Positions 2,037-16,805 of a stretch of 35,567 nucleotides of DNA are shown in pieces. The stretch's first letter is position 1; each line of letters opens with the position of its first letter. The translations under genes were made by a program, and so were the position numbers. Source of the DNA: a virus. The notes under the pieces are model-generated. The model did not search any database. It was not told the DNA's origin and saw only the letters and a program-made list of their open reading frames with translations. The DNA is taken from IMG/VR virus record IMGVR_UViG_3300042988_001384, positions 1 through 35,567 of that record; one strand, given 5' to 3'.

Positions 2037-3389
2037 TTAGTAGTCCGTCTCGAGGTAGAGTCCCACAAGCTCCAATGAGACAGCGGTCGTAGTCATGGTC
2101 GCTGCACGACCACAAATTGTAAGAAGAACACCTGTCGGGAGAGTGGACGAGGCGACGTACTCGAACAGAGCAGGAGTGTTCGGGTTGATCTTCTCAAACG
2201 AGATACTGCAGGTGTTCGAGCTAGGTGCTGCGAACATCCGAAGCTCATAGACACCGTGGTTAGCAGATGATGTCAATGACGCTGACTGGATTGGTATTCC
2301 TGTGTCTACTGTGGTCGTCGTGTTCGCGCCGTGGAAGATCTTCCAGGTCGTATCTGTCCGATTGTATCCAACACCGATTTGGTTAATGACACCAGATGGA
2401 TTAATGTTTTGGCCGTTTGCGATGTAAGACGCGCCTGTTCCAGTTACTAATCCCACAAAGAAACTGTATAGGTTGGCGGCGGCAGTCTGTCCAGGGAAGA
2501 ATCTAGACACATAGTAGAACCCGCCCATTCCAGTAACGGGCCCAAAGCCTGCAGTTCCTGTCCCCATGAAGCACAGAGGAGAAGCCATTGAATAACCTGT
2601 AGCAGCACCCGAGACTGCTGTTGAAACCCAAGCGACACGCTTCAATGACGTTGAAAACGCAGTTCCTGAGATCGCACGAGCGGTAGCAGTGCCAGATGTG
2701 ACAAGAACGAGCCCGTCAGCACCGACTGTGATCGAGTTGCTTCCGGGAGACGGGTTGAACCGATGCACTTTATTCAAGAATAGGTTTGGTTGAACCGCGA
2801 TATCGACTCCCGCGGGACCGACCCAGTTAAGCAAAGTGCGACCCGCCTTCTTTCTCGAAAATATGGTAAGGTTTCCAGCAGGAGGAACAGCGGGTCCAAC
2901 AACTCCAGAGACATACGACTCCAACATCAGATTTCCAGAGCTATCCCAATCTGTCATATGCGACGGGAATGACATCGTCAGTGTCACAACGTTGCCAGCG
3001 ACGCTGGCTGTTGGGAACCCTGCTACGTTAAAGAAGTTCAACGTCGTCGCGTCTGTCAGCACCGACGTCCCTGTGACCTGGACCGCTATCGCTGACGCGG
3101 TGGCAAAGACAGGAACGTTCAACGTGGCGGTCGAGTTGGTGATCGAGACTGACGCGCCGGAGCCGCTGATATAGAGGAGCGTCGCGGTCGCCGCGGCGGG
3201 GCCACCAGATCCAGAGAGGATAAGCGCGCCGGCGCCCCCACCCCCGCCGCCGGGAATCTCGACTGTCAGCACTCCCGTGGCGATTGTGGCTGTCACACCC
3301 GCGCCGATGAAAGATAGAGCGTCAGCGGTCCCCGAGAGGTTCCCGCTGACGTTAAGAGCTACCGATGAGTGTCCTGGAAAGTATGGCAT
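2037..3389 (-). CDS. Tail fibre-like virion protein, 450 aa
   Basis: The ATG at 3389 begins two bases after the stop of the giant repeat gene, so translation is probably coupled; I see no strong Shine-Dalgarno. Residues 1-125 are beta-repeat-like, with a Gly6 linker near residue 50 and alternating V/T/S/A strands. Residues about 145-450 form a globular C-terminal domain: it starts near SHMTDWDSSGNL, passes GPAGVDIAVQPNLF and ends GLYLETDY. I recognise this arrangement (IFSRKKAGR, then a GGFYYVSRF segment, then an LYxETD ending) from uncharacterised tail-fibre proteins of other phages, but have no named family. Position among fibre genes supports a role as a fibre or receptor-binding subunit. 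No catalytic motif was seen. Confidence 0.72.
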   Translation of the reverse strand: MPYFPGHSSVALNVSGNLSGTADALSFIGAGVTATIATGVLTVEIPGGGGGGAGALILSGSGGPAAATATLLYISGSGASVSITNSTATLNVPVFATASAIAVQVTGTSVLTDATTLNFFNVAGFPTASVAGNVVTLTMSFPSHMTDWDSSGNLMLESYVSGVVGPAVPPAGNLTIFSRKKAGRTLLNWVGPAGVDIAVQPNLFLNKVHRFNPSPGSNSITVGADGLVLVTSGTATARAISGTAFSTSLKRVAWVSTAVSGAATGYSMASPLCFMGTGTAGFGPVTGMGGFYYVSRFFPGQTAAANLYSFFVGLVTGTGASYIANGQNINPSGVINQIGVGYNRTDTTWKIFHGANTTTTVDTGIPIQSASLTSSANHGVYELRMFAAPSSNTCSISFEKINPNTPALFEYVASSTLPTGVLLTICGRAATMTTTAVSLELVGLYLETDY

Positions 3390-3391
3390 GG

Positions 3392-6300
3392 TTAGTTCGA
3401 GAGTTCGGTTACCGCCACTGAGCCGGTGACGTTCGTTCCGGACGCGATGGCGTGGATGATACCTGTGTAGCGACCTGGGACTTCAAAGTAGCTGGCCGGA
3501 GCCATTCTCACCGTCATGGAGGCCGATGTGGCCGCCGTGCCGAGCTTGACAAAGAGGACAGCCGAGGCGTGCGTGTTCTGGATGGAGGCGAAGTACCTGT
3601 TCGTGTTCGCCGCGAGGATCGACACTGAGGTTCCGGAGACCAGCGCGGTGGTGACGTTGGAGGTCGCAGCCGGAGGAGCGATGACATACGTTCCCGAGAT
3701 TGCTGAGCCACGCATACGGTCCCAGGTCGTCCCGTTGAAGACCCGGTTGTGCGAGTCGACGTCGAGAGCAACTGCTCCTGTATGAACAGCTACAGCGTCA
3801 CTGTTGTTGGAATCAACACTGACTCTGTTCCACCGAGAGCTAGCATCGTCCCAGCCATAGAGGAACACTGTCGACTCGAGGTGTCCGCTGCTGGAAGCTA
3901 CGACCTGGTCGATATCGTTACGACCCGTATCGACAACCTGGACAGTTCCCGTAACGACCCAGGAGGCTGTCTGAACAACGTTCGCTGTTCCGGTTACAAC
4001 CCAGGAAGCAGTCTGAACAACTTGTGCGGTACCTGTGACCACCCAGCTGCCCGTCTGCGTGACATTCTGCGCGGCCGGAGCGGCAGTGGTGATCGTGCCG
4101 GTGACCCAGACTGGGTTAGACAGCGTACTGGTGACGATCTGTGTTCCAGAGAAGACCGCGTTCATCGATCCGGAGATCGTGACGGTGAGCGGATTCTCGA
4201 GAGTCGCCGTGACCGAGGCGGTGTTGGAGACGGAGACCGTCGAGCCACCACCCGACTGAGTGATCCAAACCGGGTTCGCCTGCGTACCCGTTACTGTCAC
4301 CACATTTGTAACAGTGACCGAGCTTCCACCACCGGATGATGTGATCCAAACCGGGTTAGCCTGTGTGCCGGTGACGATGAACACCGACGGCATGTTGCTC
4401 TGAGATACCGTGAGAGCACCTGTCTGGGCTACTGTTACCGCACCTGTTACCCAAACCGGCGCCGCCGAGGAGGCAGTGACGACCTGCGTACCAGAGAACA
4501 CCGTGTTGATCGCACCAGAAATCGCCACCCAGGCCGGATTGGCCAGAGTCGAGGTCACCGTGACAACGTTGGAAACAGAGACCGATGAGCCACCGCCAGA
4601 CTGCGTGACCCAGACTGGATTCGCCTGTGTACCTGTGACAATCACGACCGCAGGCAGGTTGCTCTGGCTTACTGTCAGCGTTCCGGTGGTTACAACCTGA
4701 ACCGTTCCGGTAACAACCCAGCTTCCTGTCTGCGTCGCCTGTGTGGTTCCAGTAACCACCCATGAGGCAGTCTGAAGGACACGCTGGTCGTTCGACTGGG
4801 ACACTGTGAGGGTGCCTGTTGTGGTCACCTGCACCGTACCAGTTACCACCCATGAGGCAGACTGGACCACCTGCGCGGTGCCCGTGACTACCCAGGAGGC
4901 AGTCTGGAGCACACGTTGGTCGTTGGACTGCGAGACAGTGAGAGTACCCGTTGTCCCGATCCATACTGGCGAGCCGATGGCGGAGGAGACGTACTGGACC
5001 GCCGGCAGGTTGCTCTGGCTTACCGTGAGCGTGCCCGTCGTTGTTACCTGGACCGTGCCCGTGACCACGTAGGAGGCCGTCTGGACAGACTGTACTGTTC
5101 CCGTCACGACCCATGAGGCGGTCTGTGTGACGTTCTGAGCGGACGGAGCCGTGGTCGCCACGGTACCGGTGATGAGGATGGCGTTACCGGCCGAGGAGGT
5201 GATGTACCACGAACCAGTCTGCGTGGACTGGACTGTCCCGGTGACCACCCAGGAAGCCGTCTGCAAGACTCGCTGGTCATTCGACTGGGAGACTGTTAAC
5301 GTTCCTGTCGTTACGACCTGCACAGTTCCTGTTACGACCCAGCTTGCTGTCTGTGCCACGTTCTGCGACGCAGGAGCAGTCGTCGCAACTGTACCAGTGA
5401 TGAGGATCGCGTTACCGGCAGATGAAGTTACGACCCACGATCCTGTCTGGGTTGACTGCACCGTTCCTGTGACTGTCCAGGAGGCGGTCTGGACGACCCG
5501 CTGGTCATTGGACTGAGATACAGTGAGCGTGCCGGTGGTGACGACCTGGACCGTGCCTGTTACCACCCAGCTGCCTGTCTGAGTTACTGAGGACGTCAGG
5601 ACTGGGTTGGATTGGCTTACTGTCTGCGTCCCCGTGAAGACTGCTTGCACGGTTCCGGTAACGACCCAGCTGCCCGTCTGAGTGACGTTCTGAGCAGATG
5701 GAGCCGTCGTGGCGACAGTACCTGTGATCAGGATCGCGTTGCCAGCCGAGGATGTGACCACCCAGGATCCGGTCTGAGTGGACTGGACTGTGCCTGTTAC
5801 GACCCAGGACGCTGTCTGAGAGGACGCGATAGCGTTGCTCTGAGAGACTGTCAGTGTTCCGGTCGTGGTAATCTGCACCGTACCGGTGACAACCAGTGAG
5901 GCTGTCTGCACGGACTGGACCGTTCCTGTGACCACCCAGCTTGCTGTCTGCAGGACTCGCTGATCATTGGACTGCGAGACTGTAAGTGTTCCAGTCGTGA
6001 CGACTTGGACTGTACCTGTTACGACCCAGCTTCCCGTCTGCGTGACAGCCGGAGTGAGCACCGGGTTCGTCTGACTTACCGGGAGAGCTCCCGTTACAGT
6101 GACCTGAGTGACGCCACCACCGGACGAGGTCACCCAGACAGGGTTAGCTGCGCTGGCTGTTACAACCTGCGTCCCTGTGAAGGCCGCGTTTAGGACACCC
6201 GAGATCGCTACTGTGACCGGGTTAGCGAGCGAGGCTGTGACCGCCTGAGAGGCAGAGAAGTTCGAGATCGCGACGACAGTGACCGGGTTGCTCTGAGACA

Positions 6301-9300
6301 CAGTCAGAGTTCCTGTCTGCGTCATCTGTACCGTTCCAGTTACAACCAGGGACGCGGTCTGGACAGCCTGGACGGTACCGGTGACTACCCAGCTTGCTGT
6401 CTGGAGAACCCGCTGATCATTTGACTGGGAGACCGTCAGCGTGCCTGTTGTGGTAACTTGAACGGTGCCGGTCACCACCCAGGAGCCAGTCTGAGTTACT
6501 GCCGGAGTAAGAACTGGGTTGCTTTGCGAGACTGTCTGCGTTCCTGTAAACACAGCCTGGACGGTCCCCGTGACCACCCACGATCCGGTCTGTGTAACAG
6601 GGACCGCGTTCGCCACCGAGACAGAGCCTGTAACTACCCAGCTGCCGGTCTGAGTTACCGATGAAGTAAGGACCGGGTTGCTCTGAGACACGGTCTGCGT
6701 ACCAGTAAAGACCGCCTGGACTGTACCCGTGACTACCCACGAAGCAGTCTGCGTCACTGCGAACGTCGTGTTGTCGACATGGACCGTACCGGTGATGGAA
6801 CCTGTGCCGGCCGGAGTGTTGCTCTGACTGGTCGTCAGCGTGATCGTAGAACCGGTGATGTTGACGTTATTACTGCCGGTTGAACCACCCGGGTTGGCGA
6901 TGTACACCGCGCCAGAGTTGTCGACCTTGAGACCAAGCAGTGTCGTACCGCTGATACCCGCGATGTATGTCGCGGAGAGCGGAGCGGTCTGGCCTGTAGC
7001 GCCGACCGAGTTCTCAGTTACAACAAACGTACCTGAGGCTGTCGTCACCGAGGTGATAACGCCCGTGACCCAGACCGGACGGTCAGCGGAAGCAGAGACA
7101 TAGAGAGCACCCGACTGGTCGACCTTGATGTACCGGAAGACGCCGCTGTCGTTGCCACCGATCTGAGTACCGTACGAAGGCGTGGTTGAACCGTTCTCAC
7201 GGGTGGTGATGTCCGGGTGAGTGGAGATGTTGTTCCCGTTCGCTGCGACATAAGCTGTGCCGCCACCCCATGAGGAGGCAGAGACACGGACGTGGGTCGC
7301 ACCGACGATGTCATAGAGGTTGAAAGCGCCCGTGGTCGTAGTGGTCGAGCCTACAAGCTCGATCTGCGTGTTGGGGCTGTACGCCTCGACCGGCCACCAA
7401 GTGACAGCGTTATCGAATGAGGCCTGGAAGTTTATGGTACCGGTGTACGATCCTGTGATCGTGAACGTCGCTCCTGCCGCGGAGCCGATAGGCATCGTGA
7501 CTGTGGCGCCCTGAGCAGCGAGTCCGCCAACGATCGATGCTGACGCGTAGTTCTGAGTGATCGTTCCCGTGACCACCCAGCTGCCAGTCTGCGTCACTGC
7601 GACAGCGTTGGCGACTGAGACAGAACCTGTGACCGTCCAGCTTCCTGTCTGCGTGACAGAGGCTGTGAGCACTGGGTTCGACTGGCTGACGGTCAGAGTT
7701 CCTGTGGTGGTTACCTGAACCGTACCGGTGACAACGAACGATCCCGTCTGAGTGACTGGTTGAGCGTTGGATTGGCTTACGGTCAGAGTTCCCGTCGTGA
7801 CCATCTGAACCGTGCCGGTAACGACCCAGCTTCCGGTCTGCGTGACTGAAGATGTTAGAACAGGATTCGACTGCGATACGGTCAAAGCTCCCGTCGTCAC
7901 AACCTGGACTGTACCCGTAACAACCCAGGATCCTGTCTGCGTGGACGGGATCGCGTTGGACTGAGACACGGTAAGAGTACCGGTCGTGGTGACCTGCACG
8001 GTCCCTGTGACCACCCAGCTGCCAGTTTGTGTGACCGGGATAGAGGTGTTATCGAAGTGGACGGTACCGGTGACTCCCTGCGTAGCAGAGAAGTTTGAGA
8101 CCGCAACGACGGTGACTGGATTTGTCTGGCTTACCGGCAGCGTACCAGTGAACACAGACTGGACTGTGCCCGTAACAACCCAGCTTCCCGTTTGCGTTAC
8201 CGGGAGCGAGGTGTTATCAAAGTGGACCGTGCCAGTTACGCCCTGGGTCGCGGAGAAGTTAGAAACGGCGACCACCGTGACTGGGTTGCTCTGAGAGACC
8301 GTGAGCGTCCCTGTCGTCGTTACTTGGACCGTACCCGTTACAACCAACGAGGCCGTCTGAGAGACCGCGAGGCTGGTGTTATCAACGTGAACTGTTCCTG
8401 TTACACCCTGTGTCGCCGAGAAATTCGAGATGGCAACCACTGTGACTGGGTTGCTCTGCGATACCGTCAGCGCTCCCGTCGTGGTTACAGCGACGCTCGT
8501 GTTATCGAAGTGAACTGTACCCGTGATTCCCTGGGTCGCAGAGAAATTGCTAACTGCCACGACTGTGACTGGGTTAGACTGGCTTACAGTCAGAGTTCCC
8601 GTTGTGGAGACTGAGACAGAGCCTGTGACCACCCAAGATCCCGTCTGAGTCACGGACGAGGTTAGGACCGGGTTGCTTTGAGATACAGTGAGCGCTCCCG
8701 TCGTTACGACCTGGACCGTTCCTGTTACCACCCAGGATCCAGTCTGCGTGACCGAGGATGTGAGTACTGGGTTGGACTGGGAGACAGTCAGGGCGCCCGT
8801 CGTGGTGATAGAGGCCGTAAGGACAGGGTTAGACTGCGAAACTGTCAGAGTGACCGTGGATCCCGTGATGCGAACATCGTTACCCTGGCTGTTGATTACG
8901 AAGACTGAGCCGGTGATAACCTGCGTGCCATCCTGGAGGACCTTTACTGGACGGAGGTTACCTGTGGGATCAAGTCCGGCAATCTGTGTGGCGCTGTTTG
9001 GTGCGATGGCACCTGTCGTGCCGACAGAGCTCTCTACCGCGACGAATGTTCCAGAAGCAGCCGCGACTGAGGTGATCGTTCCTGTGATCCAGACCGGAGC
9101 GCCCTGAGGAGCTTGTACTGTGACTGTGTTATCTACAGTCATTGTTCCCGTGACCACCCAGGAACCTGTCTGAGTCACTGAGGCGGTAAGGACGGGATTC
9201 GACTGCGACACCGTCAACGACGTGTTGTCGAAGTGAACGGTTCCTGTGATTCCCTGAGTAGCCGAGAAGTTAGAGACTGCGACAACGGTTACAGGGTTAG

Positions 9301-12300
9301 ACTGTGATACTGTGAGCGTTCCCGTCGTGGTGATGGGGAACGAGGCGTTGTCGATGTGGACAGTTCCCGTGACTCCCTGCGTCGCCGAGAAGTTAGATAC
9401 AGCGACAACAGTGACCGGATTGCTCTGGCTTACGGTCAACGTACCCGTGGTCGTTACCTGGACTGTTCCCGTCACAACCCAGCTTCCTGTCTGCGTGACA
9501 GAAGAGGTAAGGACAGGGTTCGACTGCGAGACTGTAAGAGCTCCCGTGGTGGTCACCTGGACTGTACCGGTAACCACGAACGAAGCCGTCTGGGTCGCAG
9601 CGAGAGCAGTGTTGTCGAAGTGAACGGTGCCCGTCACACCCTGCGTCGCGGAGAAGTTGCTCACCGCTACCACAGTAACAGGGTTCGATTGTGAGACGGT
9701 CAGAGTACCCGTCGTCGTGACTGCGATCGAGGTGTTGTCAAAGTGGACCGTGCCGGTGACACCCTGCGTCGCTGAGAAGTTAGACACTGCGACGACAGTC
9801 ACGGGGTTAGATTGGGAGACTGTTAGCGTTCCGGTTGTCGTCACCGCGAACGTGGTGTTGTCGATGTGAACAGTTCCGGTGATCGACTGCGTCGCTGGCA
9901 CGTTCGACTGCGACACTGTGAGAGTCGTGTTGTCGATATGGACAGAACCGGAGATACCGACCGGCGATCCCGCAGAGGCGGTGACCGGCTGGGAGAACGG
10001 GAAGTTGGTGATCGAGACTGATCCCGTGACGACCAACGAGCCGGTCTGAGTGATCTCGGTCGTCGGATTATCTACGTGGACTGTACCTGTTACAACCCAA
10101 GATCCTGTCTGCGTTACTCCGACAACCGTTGTTGGGTTATCGATGTGAACAGTTCCTGTGACCAGCTGAGCGCCCGAGATAATCCTTCCAGGCTGCAGGT
10201 TCCCAGTAGGGTCAACAAATCCAACAAGGACCGCCTCACTGGGTGCCGCAGATCCCGTAGGACGGGAAGACGACATAAAGACATTGATTGTCGAGTTCTT
10301 GATGTCAACGGGGATCGTCGCGCCGGTGACCCACACTGGGCTTGCTTGCGACGATGTGACTATCTGCACCGCAGGGAAGTTCGCGATCGACGACGTCATC
10401 CCACCGCTGATCACTACCGCGACTGGGTTCAACATTGATGCTGTTACTGTCAGAGAATCAATACCATTCGTCTTGACGTAGAGACCACCCGTGTCACCGC
10501 GGAGGCGGTCGAAGGACGAACCGTTGAAGACCTTAACGTAGCTTTCAGCTTTGGTCAGACCGACGTTATCGATAGCGTCGCCGTCAGCGTCAATGTCGCC
10601 TGCTCCAACACGGACCCAAACATTTCCAGTCTCACTCCAGACCATGTTGAACGAGCCAACAAGGACAGAGGCTGTTGGGTTAGTGAAGTTGTCGGTGAGA
10701 GTGTCATTGCCTCCGACGAACATGTGACCATCGGTGCCGACCCGTACCAGACGAGCGATGCCACCCTCGTCAGATCCCATGATGCCAACGCCGTACTCAC
10801 CCATCGCCAGACCAGCCTCACCAGCGTATTTCATCACGTTGGGAGGAGTCTGGTTTGTACCAATGTGGATGCTAGCAGTTCCAAACGTCCATGATGTTAC
10901 ACGTCCACGGAAGTGCGTAGCGCCGGCGACGTCATATGGAACGTAGACACCAGTAACTCTAGCGGTAGACTGGATAGACTCTGCAGAAGCATCTGGGTTG
11001 TACGTCTCTACTCTGTTCCATGACACACCGTTGTCGTACGACATTTCCCAACGGATTGAACCGGAGAATGTACCAGTTACGACAGCTGCGACACCTACGC
11101 CGAACCCTATCGCGACAGAGACGACATCGTTGACACCAGTAACGGAGCCACTTGCTTGGTTGTAGAGGAACTCGTTGGCGATCGTACCGGTGATCCACAC
11201 CGGAGCGGCGAACGACGACGTTACTTGCAGAGGGACAGAAGCTGTTACATTGACATTTGAACCCTGGCTATTGACGACGTAGACAGAACCTGTGATTACC
11301 TGCGTACCGTCCTGCATCACCTTGATGGGACGCAGATTTCCCGTAGGATCAATACCACCGATTTGGGTCGCACTGTTCGGCGGGATCGCGCCGGTAGCTC
11401 CGACCGAGGCCTCGACAGCAACGAAAGTTCCCGAAGCAGCCGCCACTGAAGTGATAGTACCCGTGATCCAGACAGGAGCACCCTGCGGCGCGGTGACAGT
11501 GACCGTGTTGTCGACTGTCATCGTCCCGGTGACGACCATCGCACCGGTCTGAGCGATATTCAGGGACGTGTTATCAAAGTGGACGGTGCCAGTGACTGTC
11601 TGTGAAGCTGGGAAATTGCTGACGCTTACCGACGCCGTCAGAACCGGATTGGTCTGAGAGACAGGAAGAGTGATCGAACCGGTGATGTTGACGTTCGAGC
11701 CCTGGCTGTTCACCACGAAGACCGACTGGGTCGCCGGAACGTTCGACTGCGAGACGGTCAGTGTCGCATTGTCAAGGTGTACCGTTCCCGTTACCGTCTG
11801 CGTGGCGGAGAAGTTCGAGACCGCGACGACCGTCACCGGGTTATCAACATGGACAGTGCCCGTGACAGTCTGCGTCGCTGGGAAGTTCGAGATCGACGCC
11901 GTCAGCACCGGGTTCGTCATCGAGACCGGCAGGGTGATGGATGCAGTGATGTTGACCTCGCTGGAGCCTGAGGTCGAGTTCACCACATAGACTGACTGGG
12001 TAGCAGGGAGATTGGTCTGGCTTACGGGAAGCGTGATCGAAGCAGTGATGTTCACATCACCCGCGAAAGAAGACGTTCCCTGGTTCACCACGTAGACAGA
12101 CTGCGTGGCCGGAAGGTTCGTCTGGCTGACCGGAAGAGTGATCGAGGCGGTGATATTAACTTCGCTCGAACCAGAGGTCGAGTTCACTACATAGACGGAC
12201 TGCGTGGCGGGTACGTTGGACTGCGAGACCGTGATCGAAGCGTTATCGATGTGGACTGTGCCGGTAACTGTCTGCGTCCCTGTGCCGGGAGCGACTGAGA

Positions 12301-12589
12301 TGTTACCCGCGATGAGAAGGTTTCCAGAGGAGTCGACCTTGAGGCCGATGAGCGAACCAGTAGCGTCCTCAGCACCGATAAACGTCGCTGATGTGGGAAC
12401 CGGTTGGCCGATAGGACCGACAGAGTTCTCAGCGGTCGTGATGCCGCCAGAGAAAGACATACCCTGCACCTGCACGGCGCCGGTGACATAAACTGGGTTC
12501 GCCTGGGAGGCGGTAACTTCAACCGCTCCAGAGACGGATGCCCCTATGTTTAGACTGATACTGTTCGGTGAGTTGGAACTAATGGGCAT
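3392..12589 (-). CDS. Giant 3065-aa beta-repeat virion protein (putative fibre/adhesin)
   Basis: A single uninterrupted frame of 9.2 kb. The ATG at 12589 is preceded by AGAGGG and AGGAA. The protein is dominated by V, T, S, Q, G and N and almost lacks Cys and Lys in the repeats. The core unit is roughly QTGSWVVTGTVQV, TTGTLTVSQSNPV and VSNFSATQGVTGTVHFDN in varying order; I count about 28 VTGTVQ copies by eye. Non-repeat modules interrupt it: SATQIGG-D-TGNLRPIKV-type units near 12310-12440, 11290-11430, 10150-10260, 8910-9060 and 6905-7030, and two copies of a beta-sandwich-like unit at about 10720-11190 and 7080-7550. The last ~90 residues (VLFVKLGTAATSAS to AVTELSN) match the end of the 470-aa neighbour. 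It is predicted to be an elongated beta-structured surface protein. The tape-measure role is unlikely because helical content looks minimal. The function is inferred from location and composition only. Confidence 0.85.
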   Translation of the reverse strand: MPISSNSPNSISLNIGASVSGAVEVTASQANPVYVTGAVQVQGMSFSGGITTAENSVGPIGQPVPTSATFIGAEDATGSLIGLKVDSSGNLLIAGNISVAPGTGTQTVTGTVHIDNASITVSQSNVPATQSVYVVNSTSGSSEVNITASITLPVSQTNLPATQSVYVVNQGTSSFAGDVNITASITLPVSQTNLPATQSVYVVNSTSGSSEVNITASITLPVSMTNPVLTASISNFPATQTVTGTVHVDNPVTVVAVSNFSATQTVTGTVHLDNATLTVSQSNVPATQSVFVVNSQGSNVNITGSITLPVSQTNPVLTASVSVSNFPASQTVTGTVHFDNTSLNIAQTGAMVVTGTMTVDNTVTVTAPQGAPVWITGTITSVAAASGTFVAVEASVGATGAIPPNSATQIGGIDPTGNLRPIKVMQDGTQVITGSVYVVNSQGSNVNVTASVPLQVTSSFAAPVWITGTIANEFLYNQASGSVTGVNDVVSVAIGFGVGVAAVVTGTFSGSIRWEMSYDNGVSWNRVETYNPDASAESIQSTARVTGVYVPYDVAGATHFRGRVTSWTFGTASIHIGTNQTPPNVMKYAGEAGLAMGEYGVGIMGSDEGGIARLVRVGTDGHMFVGGNDTLTDNFTNPTASVLVGSFNMVWSETGNVWVRVGAGDIDADGDAIDNVGLTKAESYVKVFNGSSFDRLRGDTGGLYVKTNGIDSLTVTASMLNPVAVVISGGMTSSIANFPAVQIVTSSQASPVWVTGATIPVDIKNSTINVFMSSSRPTGSAAPSEAVLVGFVDPTGNLQPGRIISGAQLVTGTVHIDNPTTVVGVTQTGSWVVTGTVHVDNPTTEITQTGSLVVTGSVSITNFPFSQPVTASAGSPVGISGSVHIDNTTLTVSQSNVPATQSITGTVHIDNTTFAVTTTGTLTVSQSNPVTVVAVSNFSATQGVTGTVHFDNTSIAVTTTGTLTVSQSNPVTVVAVSNFSATQGVTGTVHFDNTALAATQTASFVVTGTVQVTTTGALTVSQSNPVLTSSVTQTGSWVVTGTVQVTTTGTLTVSQSNPVTVVAVSNFSATQGVTGTVHIDNASFPITTTGTLTVSQSNPVTVVAVSNFSATQGITGTVHFDNTSLTVSQSNPVLTASVTQTGSWVVTGTMTVDNTVTVQAPQGAPVWITGTITSVAAASGTFVAVESSVGTTGAIAPNSATQIAGLDPTGNLRPVKVLQDGTQVITGSVFVINSQGNDVRITGSTVTLTVSQSNPVLTASITTTGALTVSQSNPVLTSSVTQTGSWVVTGTVQVVTTGALTVSQSNPVLTSSVTQTGSWVVTGSVSVSTTGTLTVSQSNPVTVVAVSNFSATQGITGTVHFDNTSVAVTTTGALTVSQSNPVTVVAISNFSATQGVTGTVHVDNTSLAVSQTASLVVTGTVQVTTTGTLTVSQSNPVTVVAVSNFSATQGVTGTVHFDNTSLPVTQTGSWVVTGTVQSVFTGTLPVSQTNPVTVVAVSNFSATQGVTGTVHFDNTSIPVTQTGSWVVTGTVQVTTTGTLTVSQSNAIPSTQTGSWVVTGTVQVVTTGALTVSQSNPVLTSSVTQTGSWVVTGTVQMVTTGTLTVSQSNAQPVTQTGSFVVTGTVQVTTTGTLTVSQSNPVLTASVTQTGSWTVTGSVSVANAVAVTQTGSWVVTGTITQNYASASIVGGLAAQGATVTMPIGSAAGATFTITGSYTGTINFQASFDNAVTWWPVEAYSPNTQIELVGSTTTTTGAFNLYDIVGATHVRVSASSWGGGTAYVAANGNNISTHPDITTRENGSTTPSYGTQIGGNDSGVFRYIKVDQSGALYVSASADRPVWVTGVITSVTTASGTFVVTENSVGATGQTAPLSATYIAGISGTTLLGLKVDNSGAVYIANPGGSTGSNNVNITGSTITLTTSQSNTPAGTGSITGTVHVDNTTFAVTQTASWVVTGTVQAVFTGTQTVSQSNPVLTSSVTQTGSWVVTGSVSVANAVPVTQTGSWVVTGTVQAVFTGTQTVSQSNPVLTPAVTQTGSWVVTGTVQVTTTGTLTVSQSNDQRVLQTASWVVTGTVQAVQTASLVVTGTVQMTQTGTLTVSQSNPVTVVAISNFSASQAVTASLANPVTVAISGVLNAAFTGTQVVTASAANPVWVTSSGGGVTQVTVTGALPVSQTNPVLTPAVTQTGSWVVTGTVQVVTTGTLTVSQSNDQRVLQTASWVVTGTVQSVQTASLVVTGTVQITTTGTLTVSQSNAIASSQTASWVVTGTVQSTQTGSWVVTSSAGNAILITGTVATTAPSAQNVTQTGSWVVTGTVQAVFTGTQTVSQSNPVLTSSVTQTGSWVVTGTVQVVTTGTLTVSQSNDQRVVQTASWTVTGTVQSTQTGSWVVTSSAGNAILITGTVATTAPASQNVAQTASWVVTGTVQVVTTGTLTVSQSNDQRVLQTASWVVTGTVQSTQTGSWYITSSAGNAILITGTVATTAPSAQNVTQTASWVVTGTVQSVQTASYVVTGTVQVTTTGTLTVSQSNLPAVQYVSSAIGSPVWIGTTGTLTVSQSNDQRVLQTASWVVTGTAQVVQSASWVVTGTVQVTTTGTLTVSQSNDQRVLQTASWVVTGTTQATQTGSWVVTGTVQVVTTGTLTVSQSNLPAVVIVTGTQANPVWVTQSGGGSSVSVSNVVTVTSTLANPAWVAISGAINTVFSGTQVVTASSAAPVWVTGAVTVAQTGALTVSQSNMPSVFIVTGTQANPVWITSSGGGSSVTVTNVVTVTGTQANPVWITQSGGGSTVSVSNTASVTATLENPLTVTISGSMNAVFSGTQIVTSTLSNPVWVTGTITTAAPAAQNVTQTGSWVVTGTAQVVQTASWVVTGTANVVQTASWVVTGTVQVVDTGRNDIDQVVASSSGHLESTVFLYGWDDASSRWNRVSVDSNNSDAVAVHTGAVALDVDSHNRVFNGTTWDRMRGSAISGTYVIAPPAATSNVTTALVSGTSVSILAANTNRYFASIQNTHASAVLFVKLGTAATSASMTVRMAPASYFEVPGRYTGIIHAIASGTNVTGSVAVTELSN
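3930..10110 (-). repeat. Dense degenerate repeat tract inside the giant protein gene
   Basis: About 6 kb consists of short coding repeats that encode variants of SWVVTGTVQ, TTGTLTVSQSN and NFSATQGVTGTVHFDN. The units are obvious at protein level but differ at most third codon positions at DNA level. The repeats are in frame throughout and vary in order, so this is not a simple satellite and not a CRISPR array. Confidence 0.85.
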
Positions 12590-12641: not shown

Positions 12642-14054
12642 CTATAGGAACATCTCTTCAACCTGAAGTGCTCCAGAACCTGAAGCAGCTCCGATACAGG
12701 ACACGTCGCCCTTCCAGACTTGCGCTGTGGGTTCATAGTAGTGTTGTGGGTAAAGGTTAAATGTCCAAGTTACCAGTGAGGCGGTGGGACCGAAACGGAC
12801 CAGCAGGTTCTGGTCAGAGTCGTTGAAGATTGTGAAGTTCTTGCGGGCAGCGTTGGCCGGAAGAAGGACCAAAGAGGCCGTCGGGAAATCTATGCTGTAG
12901 TTATTACTTATGGTTGTGCCGTTTATGTTGACGTCGGACGCTCCAGAGAATGAGAGGCCAGAGACTGTGACCTGTAGAGCTCCTGAAACTACGTTGACGC
13001 CCGAGATCTCGACCACTCCGGTGGAGCTAGAAACCTGGTTAACTACATAGACTGATTGGGTCGCCGGGAGGTTGGTGATGGTGGCGCTGAGGGCCCCCGT
13101 GAGGGTCGCAGTGACGACCCCGGTGATGGCCACAGGACCATCAATCCCCACAGACCCGCTCACTGTCTGGGTGACCGGGAGGTTTGAGACCGCCACCGTG
13201 CCAGTGACGGACTGTACTGATGCCGTCGCAGGCCAGTTGAGGACGTTGACGCTTGAGGTCAGGACCGGGTTGGTCTGAGATACTGGCAGCGTGATCGAGG
13301 CGGTGATGTTTACGTCACCGGCAAACGACGATGTTCCCTGGTTTACGACGAAGACGCTCTGGGTGACCGGGAAGTTTAGGACGTTGACTCCGGTGACCGG
13401 GTTCAAAACTGTTACGTCGAAGGCTCCGGTGCCCGTGACCGTTACGACCGATGGGAAATTAGTTACGGAAACACTGGCGGTCCCAGAAACCGTTACGCTT
13501 CCGGAAGTCTGGTTGACGACATAGACGCTCTGGGTCGCGGGGAGGTTCGTCTGGGAGACCGGCAGGACTCCGGTCAGCGTCATCGTCACCGACGTGACCG
13601 GGTCGGGGAAGTTGGTGACCGTGACCGAGGCCGTGTTGAGGACGTAGACGCCCGAGACCTGCGTCGGCCAGTTCTGGACGAAGACGCCGGTGTTCAGGAC
13701 GGTGACGACGCCCGTGACCGGCAGCGCACCGGTGACCGTGATCGGGAAGAACGCTGGGAAGTTCTCGACGAAGACCGTGCCCGAGACTCCGACCGGGTGA
13801 CCCTGGCTGGTCGTGACCTCGATGACGCCACCGATGGTGACGCCCGACAGCGAGATGTTGACTGGGTTCGTCTGCGAGACCGGGATCGATCCCAGCGGTC
13901 CCATACCACCGGCGATGTAGACGTTGACACCTACACCGTAATCAGGCGCGTAGGGCAGGTTCCCTGATTTATCAGGTCCCACACCCTCGATAATGCGCAT
14001 CTGTCCCGGAGCGGGATTTGCGGCTGTTACGTATGTTTTCCCTTCCCAGGACAT
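12642..14054 (-). CDS. 470-aa beta-repeat virion protein, short paralogue of the giant protein
   Basis: The ATG at 14054 has AGGGAGA about eight bases upstream. Residues about 55-350 are short beta-repeats such as PVSQTNLPATQSVYVVNQ, SVSVTNFP and QGTSSFAGDVNITAS, several of which recur nearly unchanged in the adjacent 3065-aa protein. The C-terminal ~85 residues (NFTIFNDSDQNLLVRFG to LQVEEMFL) form a compact domain whose pattern, N-(D/T)-x-N-LxVxxG-TAS followed by a YxEx(P) turn, is repeated at the end of the giant protein. The N-terminal ~55 residues (SWEGKTYVTAAN to GPLGSIPVS) are unique and may anchor it to the tail. It sits immediately downstream of the sheath gene, suggesting a baseplate or fibre component. 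Exact function is unknown. Confidence 0.78.
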   Translation of the reverse strand: MSWEGKTYVTAANPAPGQMRIIEGVGPDKSGNLPYAPDYGVGVNVYIAGGMGPLGSIPVSQTNPVNISLSGVTIGGVIEVTTSQGHPVGVSGTVFVENFPAFFPITVTGALPVTGVVTVLNTGVFVQNWPTQVSGVYVLNTASVTVTNFPDPVTSVTMTLTGVLPVSQTNLPATQSVYVVNQTSGSVTVSGTASVSVTNFPSVVTVTGTGAFDVTVLNPVTGVNVLNFPVTQSVFVVNQGTSSFAGDVNITASITLPVSQTNPVLTSSVNVLNWPATASVQSVTGTVAVSNLPVTQTVSGSVGIDGPVAITGVVTATLTGALSATITNLPATQSVYVVNQVSSSTGVVEISGVNVVSGALQVTVSGLSFSGASDVNINGTTISNNYSIDFPTASLVLLPANAARKNFTIFNDSDQNLLVRFGPTASLVTWTFNLYPQHYYEPTAQVWKGDVSCIGAASGSGALQVEEMFL

Positions 14055-14076
14055 TCGGTGGTCTCCCTAAACAGCT

Positions 14077-14107
14077 GGGGCCCCGAGGCTAGTGTCCTCG
14101 GGGCCCC
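14077..14107 (-). terminator. GC-rich 12-bp hairpin between sheath and fibre genes
   Basis: GGGGCCCCGAGG (14077-14088) and CCTCGGGGCCCC (14096-14107) form a perfect 12-bp stem with a 7-base loop, in the 90-base gap after the sheath stop. On the minus strand it is followed by AGCUGUUUAG, not a clean U-run. It may be an attenuator, an RNA-stabilising 3' hairpin, or a weak terminator. Confidence 0.5.
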
Positions 14108-14144
14108 GTGTACTCATCCTACGCGTGGCAGGCGAGCGGAGTGG

Positions 14145-16805
14145 TTACTCCTCGAAGGACACTCCCGAGCTGGTGATGATGAAGCTCAGGTCGATGTACT
14201 CCGCGGACCGTGTGGGCTGCAGGAAGATCTTACCGGTCATGATGTTCCGGTCGATCAGGTCCGGAGTGTTCGTGGAGGAATCCATGACCACCTTGAACCT
14301 CTCCAGGCCCTGGTCCATACGGACCTTGTCGAGGATCGGGTTGACAGTGTTGAGGAACCGCTGCCAGGTGTTCGGGTTGTTCGGCTCGAACAGGAGGTAA
14401 CGAGCCACAGAGGCGATCGTCTTCTTGGCGTAGATGAGAAGACGACGGACGTTGACGCGGTCCAGAGCGGAGGGACGCTGCTGCAGCGTCTTCTGGCCCC
14501 AGATTACGATGCCCTCGTTCGGGAACGTGGCGATCGGGTTGATGCGGGACTCATACAGATCGTTGCGGTCCTGGAAGGTGAGGCGATCCAGGGTGTCGAC
14601 CACGCCGAACTGGCTGAGACCACCGCGGTTGAGACCGGCCGGAGCGAAGAACACCTGACCGACGCGGTCGTTGTAGGCGATGGCACCGAGGACGGCCACC
14701 GACGGAGACACGGTCACCATGACGTTGTTGGTCGTGTCCGCGTAGCGGATCTTCGGGTAGTAGGTGGCAGCGTAGTTGTCATCGATTCCCTGCGTGTTGA
14801 GGGAGGAGATGGCAGCCGAGACCGACTCACCGTCGATGTCCATAACATACATGACGTCCGCGCGAGCGTTGCACATCTGGCGGACGTAGGAGGTCACGGA
14901 CGGGTTGGTGATACCGGGGACGGCGATCAGGTTGATGTCGATCTCGTCCGGGTTGCTGACCAGGTCGATCGCCTTCTTCAGCGAGACGGTGCTGATCGAG
15001 GTGGCCGAGGTGCCGGTAAGGAGCGGGTCAGCCTGCGTCATATCGAACCCATCGAAGCCACCCGCGAACCCGACCGTGAAGCCGTTGATGCCGTTGATGC
15101 TCGGCACCGCAGGACCGGTGGTGTACAGAGTGGTGGGATCGTAGTCGTAGTAGCTGACGCCGGAGAGGATCGCGGTGGTGAGGTGATGCATCGAGAAGTC
15201 AGTGCCCTTAGGAGCGTAGACGTTGCTTCCTGGGAACTTGAGCAGGTCCTCGATACCATCGAGCGTGAAGTCCAAGCCGAAGAATTTGTAGACAGCGAGG
15301 TTGTTATTGCTGTCGAGGTTGTTCGAGACGTACGCACCGGAGAGGTCTACAGCCTCAAGAGTGTAGTACGTAGGGCTGAGACCTGTAACAGAGTACGTTA
15401 GAGGCAGAACCGTAGGATCAATTAACGTGCTGGCGTTTCCTCCGCTGACATATCCCGTAGATGTCAATCCTGTCAACGTATTGACAAGAGCCCTTGCATC
15501 ACCAAACGTCATCAGATAGTCAACAGAAATTGTCGCTGTAGTTCCAACCAAAGCTGCGCTGCCTGGAGTTGTACCTGTAGCAAACACGACTTGGAATGAT
15601 GTTCCCGTTGCTTGAGTGGTAACAATCAGTCCTTCTGTCGTACCAAGAATAGCATGAGCTACACCCTTTGTTCCGGTCGTATTGACAATGTTCGTTACCG
15701 GAACCATCTGCGGGTAACCACTGTGTGCCCAAGGAAGAGCATCCGTCGGGTGATAACCGGTGTCCATCTCGATACGGATGAACTTACTGTAGTTCTTGAA
15801 GGTGTTAGCGACCACCAGCTTCTGCGTGGTAGAGTTCCAGTAGCGATACTGATCGCCGATCACGCGAGGCAGGTAGTTGGGGCTGGTCGGGTCTAGAGTG
15901 ACGTTGGTGAACGTCTCGTTCTGGATGAGCTTGCCGTCGGTGTCCTGGAAGCCGCGGACGATGATATCGAACGTGCCGTAGGGAGTGACAGCCGAGTTGA
16001 CCGACTTGCGGATGTTGGCGATCGAGACCTTGACGTCAGTGTTCGAAGCCTCACCAGCCGAGAGGGCGTGGATACGGAACAGCTGGTAGCTGTTCGAGCC
16101 GTAGTTCTGTGACTTTATCCACGGAGTGACCGCCGAGGTGAAGTCGCAATCAAACGAGCTTGACGTTGTTCCAGAAAGTTCAGCCACATAATAAGGAGCA
16201 GTGGTGGCTGCTGGCGTGGCGACGCTGTTGTGGGCCCAATCGAAACACTCGTAAAGATAGTGTCCGAAATAGCCAATTTGTGTTGGATCACCGTTAAGAA
16301 CATTTCGGATGTAGTTTGGATCTGTTCTCAAGAAGCTTAGCGTTCCAGCGTATGAGCCAGTAAAGTCTGAGCTTGCAGACCCGATAAACGAGAAGGTCGG
16401 GTATTCAGACGTCCCGCTAAGGGTGAAGGTCGTCCCCTTAGCGACATTGACTACTGCAAGCAGAGTGTCGTTGTAATCAACGATACCGAACGACGTCTGC
16501 GTCGAGTAGTTCTCAACAGCGCCAGGGTCAGGAGCCGCCGAACGATCACCGAGGACTCTGACCACCGTGCAGGCGGACGAGTTCTTCAGGTAATTCTTGA
16601 TCGCGTACGGAGCCTCCATCAGAGGATCAACATCGCCGAACTTGGCGACGTAGTCATTGAAATCCGTGACGAGGGTGGGAACAAGAGCAGGACCCTTGCT
16701 GGTACGGCCTACCACTACGGCGCCGATGGCGCCCACACCCGAGGCCAGGAAGCTTTGATCAAGCTCCTGAGTGAATACGCCGGGCGATACGAACTTTCGA
16801 GCCAT
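14145..16805 (-). CDS. Tail sheath protein, T4 gp18-like, 886 aa
   Basis: This is the contractile sheath subunit that polymerises around the tail tube. The N-terminus has the typical sheath start SPGVFTQELDQS followed by GAIGAVVVGRTSKGPA. The C-terminal ~180 residues (GIVIWGQKTLQQRPSALDRV, then RRLLIYAKKTIASVARYLLFEPN and a final beta-rich stretch) match the conserved sheath core. GGAGAG lies about 7 bases upstream of the ATG at 16805. At 886 aa it is longer than T4 gp18 (659 aa). Residues about 98-222 and 375-492 look like inserted domains and use AT-richer codons than the core. The insertions probably face outward, as variable sheath domains do in the family; that is inference. The gene follows a gp15-like gene, as expected for a tail cluster. 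Confidence 0.95.
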   Translation of the reverse strand: MARKFVSPGVFTQELDQSFLASGVGAIGAVVVGRTSKGPALVPTLVTDFNDYVAKFGDVDPLMEAPYAIKNYLKNSSACTVVRVLGDRSAAPDPGAVENYSTQTSFGIVDYNDTLLAVVNVAKGTTFTLSGTSEYPTFSFIGSASSDFTGSYAGTLSFLRTDPNYIRNVLNGDPTQIGYFGHYLYECFDWAHNSVATPAATTAPYYVAELSGTTSSSFDCDFTSAVTPWIKSQNYGSNSYQLFRIHALSAGEASNTDVKVSIANIRKSVNSAVTPYGTFDIIVRGFQDTDGKLIQNETFTNVTLDPTSPNYLPRVIGDQYRYWNSTTQKLVVANTFKNYSKFIRIEMDTGYHPTDALPWAHSGYPQMVPVTNIVNTTGTKGVAHAILGTTEGLIVTTQATGTSFQVVFATGTTPGSAALVGTTATISVDYLMTFGDARALVNTLTGLTSTGYVSGGNASTLIDPTVLPLTYSVTGLSPTYYTLEAVDLSGAYVSNNLDSNNNLAVYKFFGLDFTLDGIEDLLKFPGSNVYAPKGTDFSMHHLTTAILSGVSYYDYDPTTLYTTGPAVPSINGINGFTVGFAGGFDGFDMTQADPLLTGTSATSISTVSLKKAIDLVSNPDEIDINLIAVPGITNPSVTSYVRQMCNARADVMYVMDIDGESVSAAISSLNTQGIDDNYAATYYPKIRYADTTNNVMVTVSPSVAVLGAIAYNDRVGQVFFAPAGLNRGGLSQFGVVDTLDRLTFQDRNDLYESRINPIATFPNEGIVIWGQKTLQQRPSALDRVNVRRLLIYAKKTIASVARYLLFEPNNPNTWQRFLNTVNPILDKVRMDQGLERFKVVMDSSTNTPDLIDRNIMTGKIFLQPTRSAEYIDLSFIITSSGVSFEE

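Follow-up and report, generated by a model that had tools for sequence, protein, structure and literature searches.

A viral gene in the window (the whole stretch of DNA analysed here, a 35.6-kb virus record of 35,567 nucleotides) encodes a 3065-residue repeat protein whose copies are alike as peptides but agree in their choice of codons no better than chance. We regard this giant protein as probably ordinary in kind, a fibre or adhesin, uncommon in size and special for the complete loss of codon memory among its repeats.

The giant frame and its repeats

The sequence-only reading had placed a single 3065-residue frame at 3392-12589, and both the extent and the length proved exact. The frame runs uninterrupted from an ATG at 12589 on the minus strand (Table 1); a plus-strand reading of the same interval was rejected because stops occur throughout it. 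Threonine, valine, serine and glycine make up 57% of the protein, which has a pI of 4.7, a mass of about 309 kDa and very few charges. About 2050 residues could be assigned to repeats and about 1010 to other modules. Cysteine is absent, and all 11 lysines lie within the modules, none within the repeats, so the near absence of both residues from the repeats noted at first sight is borne out, as is the lack of a helix-rich section (the predicted elements are nearly all strands). To call the size unusual is fair, as none of the open frames in 98 related loci exceeds it; 'without peer' would not be, as frames of 2696, 2255 and 2110 aa are also present there. An assembly artefact is unlikely, because the longest exact DNA repeat in the gene is 24 nt and there are no N bases.

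Table 1. Features of the giant protein and the surrounding genes (positions in the window)
Feature	Positions	Strand	Remarks
Structural-looking protein, at least 674 aa	3..2024	-	cut by contig end; without family match
450-aa downstream neighbour	2037..3389	-	homologues follow the L001 and L097 relatives; hit to phrog_13925 (unknown)
Giant repeat protein ORF	3392..12589	-	ATG start, stop 3392-3394; relatives in L001 (1321 aa) and L097 (1308 aa)
C-terminal beta-sandwich	3395..3691	-	aa ~2967-3065; pLDDT mostly 70-85; common to L001, L097 and the 470-aa ORF
Second NGTTWDRMRG module	3692..3946	-	aa ~2882-2966; from sequence
Longest repeat block	3947..6874	-	aa ~1906-2881; from sequence comparison
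Jelly-roll module 2	7190..7537	-	aa ~1685-1800; confident part of second model; nearest solved fold YomS (6i5o)
Repeat block	7538..8872	-	aa ~1240-1684; from sequence comparison
Repeat block with 31-aa units TGTLTVSQSNPVTVVAVSNFSATQGVTGTVH	9110..10177	-	aa ~805-1160; from sequence comparison
First FNGxxxDRxRG module	10454..10717	-	aa ~625-712; from sequence
Jelly-roll module 1	10850..11179	-	aa ~471-580; aligned with module 2, L001 and L097
First SATxIGGxDxxGNLxxxKVDxxG module	12299..12442	-	aa ~50-97; from sequence
N-terminal segment, possible anchor	12470..12589	-	aa 1-40; layout resembles start of L001 relative
470-aa short paralogue	12642..14054	-	shares repeat words and C-terminal domain with the giant; L001 counterpart is the 207-aa ORF
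Tail sheath protein	14145..16805	-	family match; first gene of same-strand run, upstream of 470-aa paralogue and giant gene

The claim that one frame holds dozens of variants of a few repeat words is confirmed by direct counts (SWVVTGT 28, TGTLTVSQSN 19, LTVSQSN 29, NFSATQ 9, TGTVH[FIVL]DN 16, VTGT 52). Chance is excluded as the origin of these repeats, because the approximately 4.7 million residue pairs of the protein, at a background identity of 0.106, should yield well under one pair of identical 8-mers and 4187 such pairs were found. The bricks vary in length, so that the spacings (such as 8, 14, 22, 30, 33, 41, 44 and 55) are sums of brick lengths and show no single period. A 31-aa unit, TGTLTVSQSNPVTVVAVSNFSATQGVTGTVH, occurs eight times nearly unchanged, and larger blocks of 59-131 aa recur at 84-93% protein identity (residues 352-443 and 1145-1236, for example, are 89% identical). 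The alternating hydrophobic pattern does not rise above that of shuffled sequence (140 vs 132 ± 10). Triple beta-spiral and triple beta-helix shafts are recognized by a repeat of fixed length whose turn and hydrophobic positions are set within a trimer; in the array, the spacings listed above lie between 8 and 55.

Repeat copies have lost their codon memory

Duplication should leave the resulting copies with shared codons. Across the 4187 pairs of identical 8-mers, however, codon agreement was 0.384, against 0.382 ± 0.008 after synonymous shuffling within the gene, and it stayed at the random level for every word length from k = 6 to 25, the test being sensitive enough to pick up a remaining memory of about 4% at 3 sd. 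Copies lying within 60 aa of each other agreed no better than distant ones. When the same test was applied to other repeat-bearing frames of the related loci, which are partly antisense or collagen-like and so give only a rough background, an excess was usual and reached nearly full identity. The repeat frame of Microcystis phage Mel-JY01 gave 0.69 vs 0.54 (z 7.7) and the L097 relative of the giant protein 0.45 vs 0.33 (z 4.1), while the L001 relative, with few pairs, had no excess. A negative value for a frame in L010 was set aside, as it came from 72 pairs and, with about 25 genes tested, lacks significance.

Between the blocks that are 84-93% identical in protein, pS is 0.65-0.83, which is saturated, and pN is 0.07-0.15. 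For scale, the sheath proteins of the window and of L013 are 72% identical; pS between their genes is 0.51, and 65% of codons agree where the residues are the same. The repeat copies are thus further apart at synonymous sites than these two sheaths and yet closer in protein. Across life, the repeats inside a protein are reported to diverge as a rule more quickly from one another than orthologues do between species (Persi et al., PMC5120217), and the giant array shows the reverse of that pattern, with copies alike in protein and synonymous sites saturated.

The simplest account is that the duplications are old, that each copy has been under strong purifying selection and that no units have been gained recently. 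Gene conversion as the homogenizer is excluded, because it would have homogenized the DNA as well. Short-read assembly recovers such a repeat gene only where the copies differ in DNA, and the absence of very recent duplicates is therefore partly an ascertainment effect; this can hide very recent long duplicates, but it does not explain randomized codons or the complete loss of codon memory. Protein engineers scramble the codons of repeat genes on purpose, and a natural equivalent may be imagined in which selection keeps the peptides near-identical and the DNA non-repetitive, protecting the 9.2-kb gene from recombination and slippage. Codon agreement at the random level fits such scrambling and passive saturation equally. 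Agreement below the random level was not seen at any k from 6 to 25, and because agreement is at that level and not below it, the data allow for active selection against DNA repeats without demonstrating it; we hold such selection to be distinctly unlikely. Either close policing has maintained an old array, or the DNA of the array is kept free of repetition.

Genomic context and relatives

The source phage is a T4-like, contractile-tailed virus of bacteria, with a gp23-type major capsid protein, tail sheath, head-tail adaptor, portal and terminase large subunit all recognized on the contig. Its nearest isolate by sheath is Mel-JY01 (41.5% identity over 74% of the protein). The genes for the sheath, the 470-aa protein, the giant protein, the 450-aa protein and the protein of at least 674 aa follow one another in that order on one strand, and purine-rich stretches resembling ribosome-binding sites precede some of their starts. 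A tail tube gene was not recognized after the sheath gene (window 14054-14145), where Mel-JY01 has gp19; L013 and L014 carry a small gene of 122-127 aa at that position. In the structural block of L014, a Cys-rich protein of 157 aa that by eye is YkgJ-like (6656-7129) adjoins a short repeat-family protein.

Homologues of the giant protein were found on two IMG/VR viral contigs, L001 (IMGVR_UViG_3300045970_000106) and L097 (IMGVR_UViG_3300032173_000061), with phmmer E-values of 5e-105 and 2e-103 (BLASTP E-value 3e-81). They share its jelly-roll, IGG-type and C-terminal modules, the repeat words TTGTLTVSQSNPVLTASV and the downstream neighbour of 450-460 aa (36% identity between the window and L001 counterparts), but they are 2.3 times shorter and consist mainly of GLVGVSGTVAITSGVLTSITN-type units, and the L097 protein, unlike the giant, keeps some codon memory. 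In both contigs the 450-aa homologue is followed by a T4-type baseplate hub gene (the hub and the next gene of L001 were recognized through their similarity to those of L097). L097 has in addition a tape-measure-like gene after the hub and, just upstream of the relative, a long-tail-fibre-type protein with an S74 chaperone; in L001 a protein with an F5/8-type lectin domain lies upstream.

The 470-aa and giant proteins of the window have 39 distinct 8-mers in common and a similar C-terminal domain. A short and a long protein in the same order also occur in L001, where a mini version of 207 aa (5757-6380), with the same N- and C-terminal domains and hardly any repeats, precedes the 1321-aa protein. 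Each protein of the pair in the window is about 2.3 times the length of its L001 counterpart (470/207 and 3065/1321), perhaps by coincidence. Words of the form TTGTLTVSQSNPVLT[AS]SV are found once in each of L001 and L097, before the jelly roll, and as the window has 19 copies of TGTLTVSQSN, comparison of the three sequences suggests that the giant protein was enlarged by use of an ancestral brick.

Beyond these contigs the family is rare. Pfam, PHROGs and NCBIfam gave no family match for the giant protein, and a sequence search of solved structures gave nothing meaningful. Among phage records there were no matches to the N-terminal 900 aa, the 470-aa ORF, the L097 relative or the DNA; the C-terminus matched only three unannotated contigs (34%) and no annotated fibre. 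Scans of viral contigs and genomes found no full-length relatives other than those in L001 and L097, and no relatives appeared when the middle module or the 470-aa ORF served as query. The giant protein thus belongs, as an enlarged form, to a rare tail-block family that has no name. The 2255-aa tail-block repeat protein of Mel-JY01 (L015 28586-35353) was considered as a relative and rejected as unrelated; it is annotated as hypothetical and carries many YDTKYxPESSIFDWDGKR-type repeats of roughly 40 aa, and by eye its C-terminal part resembles the L001 and L097 proteins.

Modules and predicted folds

In addition to the modules listed in Table 1, further copies of SATxIGGxDxxGNLxxxKVDxxG lie near residues 375-432, 775-806, 1170-1230 and 1800-1905. 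Repeat-module proteins on viral contigs that are otherwise unrelated (L004-L012) also carry the NGTTWDRMRG motif, which on this sequence evidence appears to mark a widespread, unnamed phage module.

Two AlphaFold2 models, run on the monomer with shallow alignments, gave confident folds for just two parts, the C-terminal ~90 residues and jelly roll 2. Jelly roll 2 superposes on YomS (6i5o) with a TM-score of 0.64 by target length (2.8 Å over 99 columns, 22% identity), the next matches being CBM29 and C2-type lectin-like folds, and these model-based matches hint at sugar binding. YomS and the C-terminal domain of XepA, from Bacillus subtilis prophages, share the fold of this module. Both are stand-alone pentameric proteins of lytic cassettes (PMC6834076), unlike the jelly roll of the giant protein, which is embedded in a chain of 3065 aa. 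For the C-terminal domain the matches are small phage proteins that stand alone (TM 0.7-0.83 by target length). For both models the first PDB match was a tail-fibre entry, 9rkv (E about 8e-4 to 9e-4), with a TM-score of 0.10-0.13 and an rmsd above 20 Å, a match that can be taken as a hint only and is too weak to infer homology.

Within the repeats pLDDT was below 50, while strands were still predicted at regular intervals. Intertwined trimeric shafts often fail in monomer prediction, so that the low confidence of these models cannot be read either as support for a fibre or as proof of a disordered chain.

The probable role of the giant protein

The sequence-only reading had proposed a very long fibre, whisker or decorating sheet around the tail. 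That proposal is supported in part: gene context and module content favour a virion fibre or adhesin, which may take any of the three forms. We think it probable, with some reserve, that the giant protein is a very long, modular, beta-rich fibre (a tail fibre or whisker-type adhesin) of the T4-like phage. This is the most likely reading because of the location in the tail block, the all-beta composition, the lectin-like modules, the short paralogue and the fibre gene beside the L097 relative; the gene also sits in the same-strand run downstream of the sheath, and the phage encodes a gp23-type capsid, a portal and a terminase. Against it, neither PHROGs, Pfam nor NCBIfam yielded a tail-fibre family match, the phage records gave no annotated fibre, and the giant protein contains no S74 or other chaperone. 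The low pLDDT of the repeats, the weakness of the 9rkv match and an alternating hydrophobic pattern no stronger than in shuffled sequence also count against a fibre. Its short N-terminal segment would serve as the anchor and a shaft, extended and probably trimeric, would be built from the ~2050 residues of short strand-turn repeats; along it and at its tip, two carbohydrate-binding-like jelly rolls, several small GG-turn modules, two NGTTWDRMRG modules and the C-terminal sandwich would be displayed to hold host-surface sugars. Presence in the virion, the trimer, the geometry and orientation of the shaft and the binding of sugar are all things that we infer. Solenoids pack about 20 residues per 0.48 nm and triple beta-spirals about 15 residues per 1.3 nm, and as a rough guide a 2050-residue shaft would measure of the order of 50 nm in the former case and up to about 180 nm in the latter.

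That the protein instead decorates the sheath, neck or capsid, as wrapping strands, curly head fibres or a tail sheet, is possible if rather unlikely. The position of its gene in the run right after the sheath gene would suit such a role, as would the likeness of its C-terminal sandwich to small stand-alone phage proteins and the match of one F5/8 neighbour in L001 to a head-and-packaging PHROG, but the L001 and L097 orthologues sit with baseplate-hub genes and, in L097, also with the tape-measure-like and tail-fibre genes. A flexible, largely disordered, low-charge linker, an entropic tether bearing sugar-binding modules with no ordered shaft, could account for the low predicted confidence of the repeats and their richness in T, S, G and Q. 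We consider it improbable, as strands are predicted regularly and long repeat peptides are precisely conserved while their synonymous sites are saturated, which is unexpected in a linker indifferent to sequence. A secreted or cell-surface protein made during infection and not part of the virion is very improbable indeed: the gene lies among structural genes, the C-terminal domain and repeats are common to another protein of the block, and by eye there is no signal peptide at the N-terminus.

As a fibre the giant protein may be compared with several known systems. The long tail fibre of Agrobacterium phage 7-7-1 (9rkv), the best fold match, also comes from a contractile-tailed phage and is a trimer that combines a beta-helical shaft in its middle with a jelly roll at its end (PMC12796354), but it has only about 590 aa and no detectable sequence similarity. 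The tail proteins of crAss-like phages carry tandem BACON repeats of sugar-binding type (PMC6949934) and are similarly tail-associated, but there whole domains are repeated, and the giant protein has no Ig-like or BACON Pfam match. T4-type gp34 and gp37 are likewise long beta-rich fibre proteins of the tail block, the location of the giant gene and its relatives in the window, L001 and L097, and a gp37-like protein with S74 adjoins the L097 relative; the giant protein differs from them in the lack of the family match and of S74 noted above and in far more regular repeats.

Significance

Phage fibres decide host range, and the giant protein, among the largest in the related loci, stands outside every named family. 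Its array looks stable, with each copy apparently under separate constraint. This makes it a clean test case for two questions: how uniformity is maintained in long repeat shafts when gene conversion plays no part, and whether repetition in the DNA of repeat proteins is selected against in phages.
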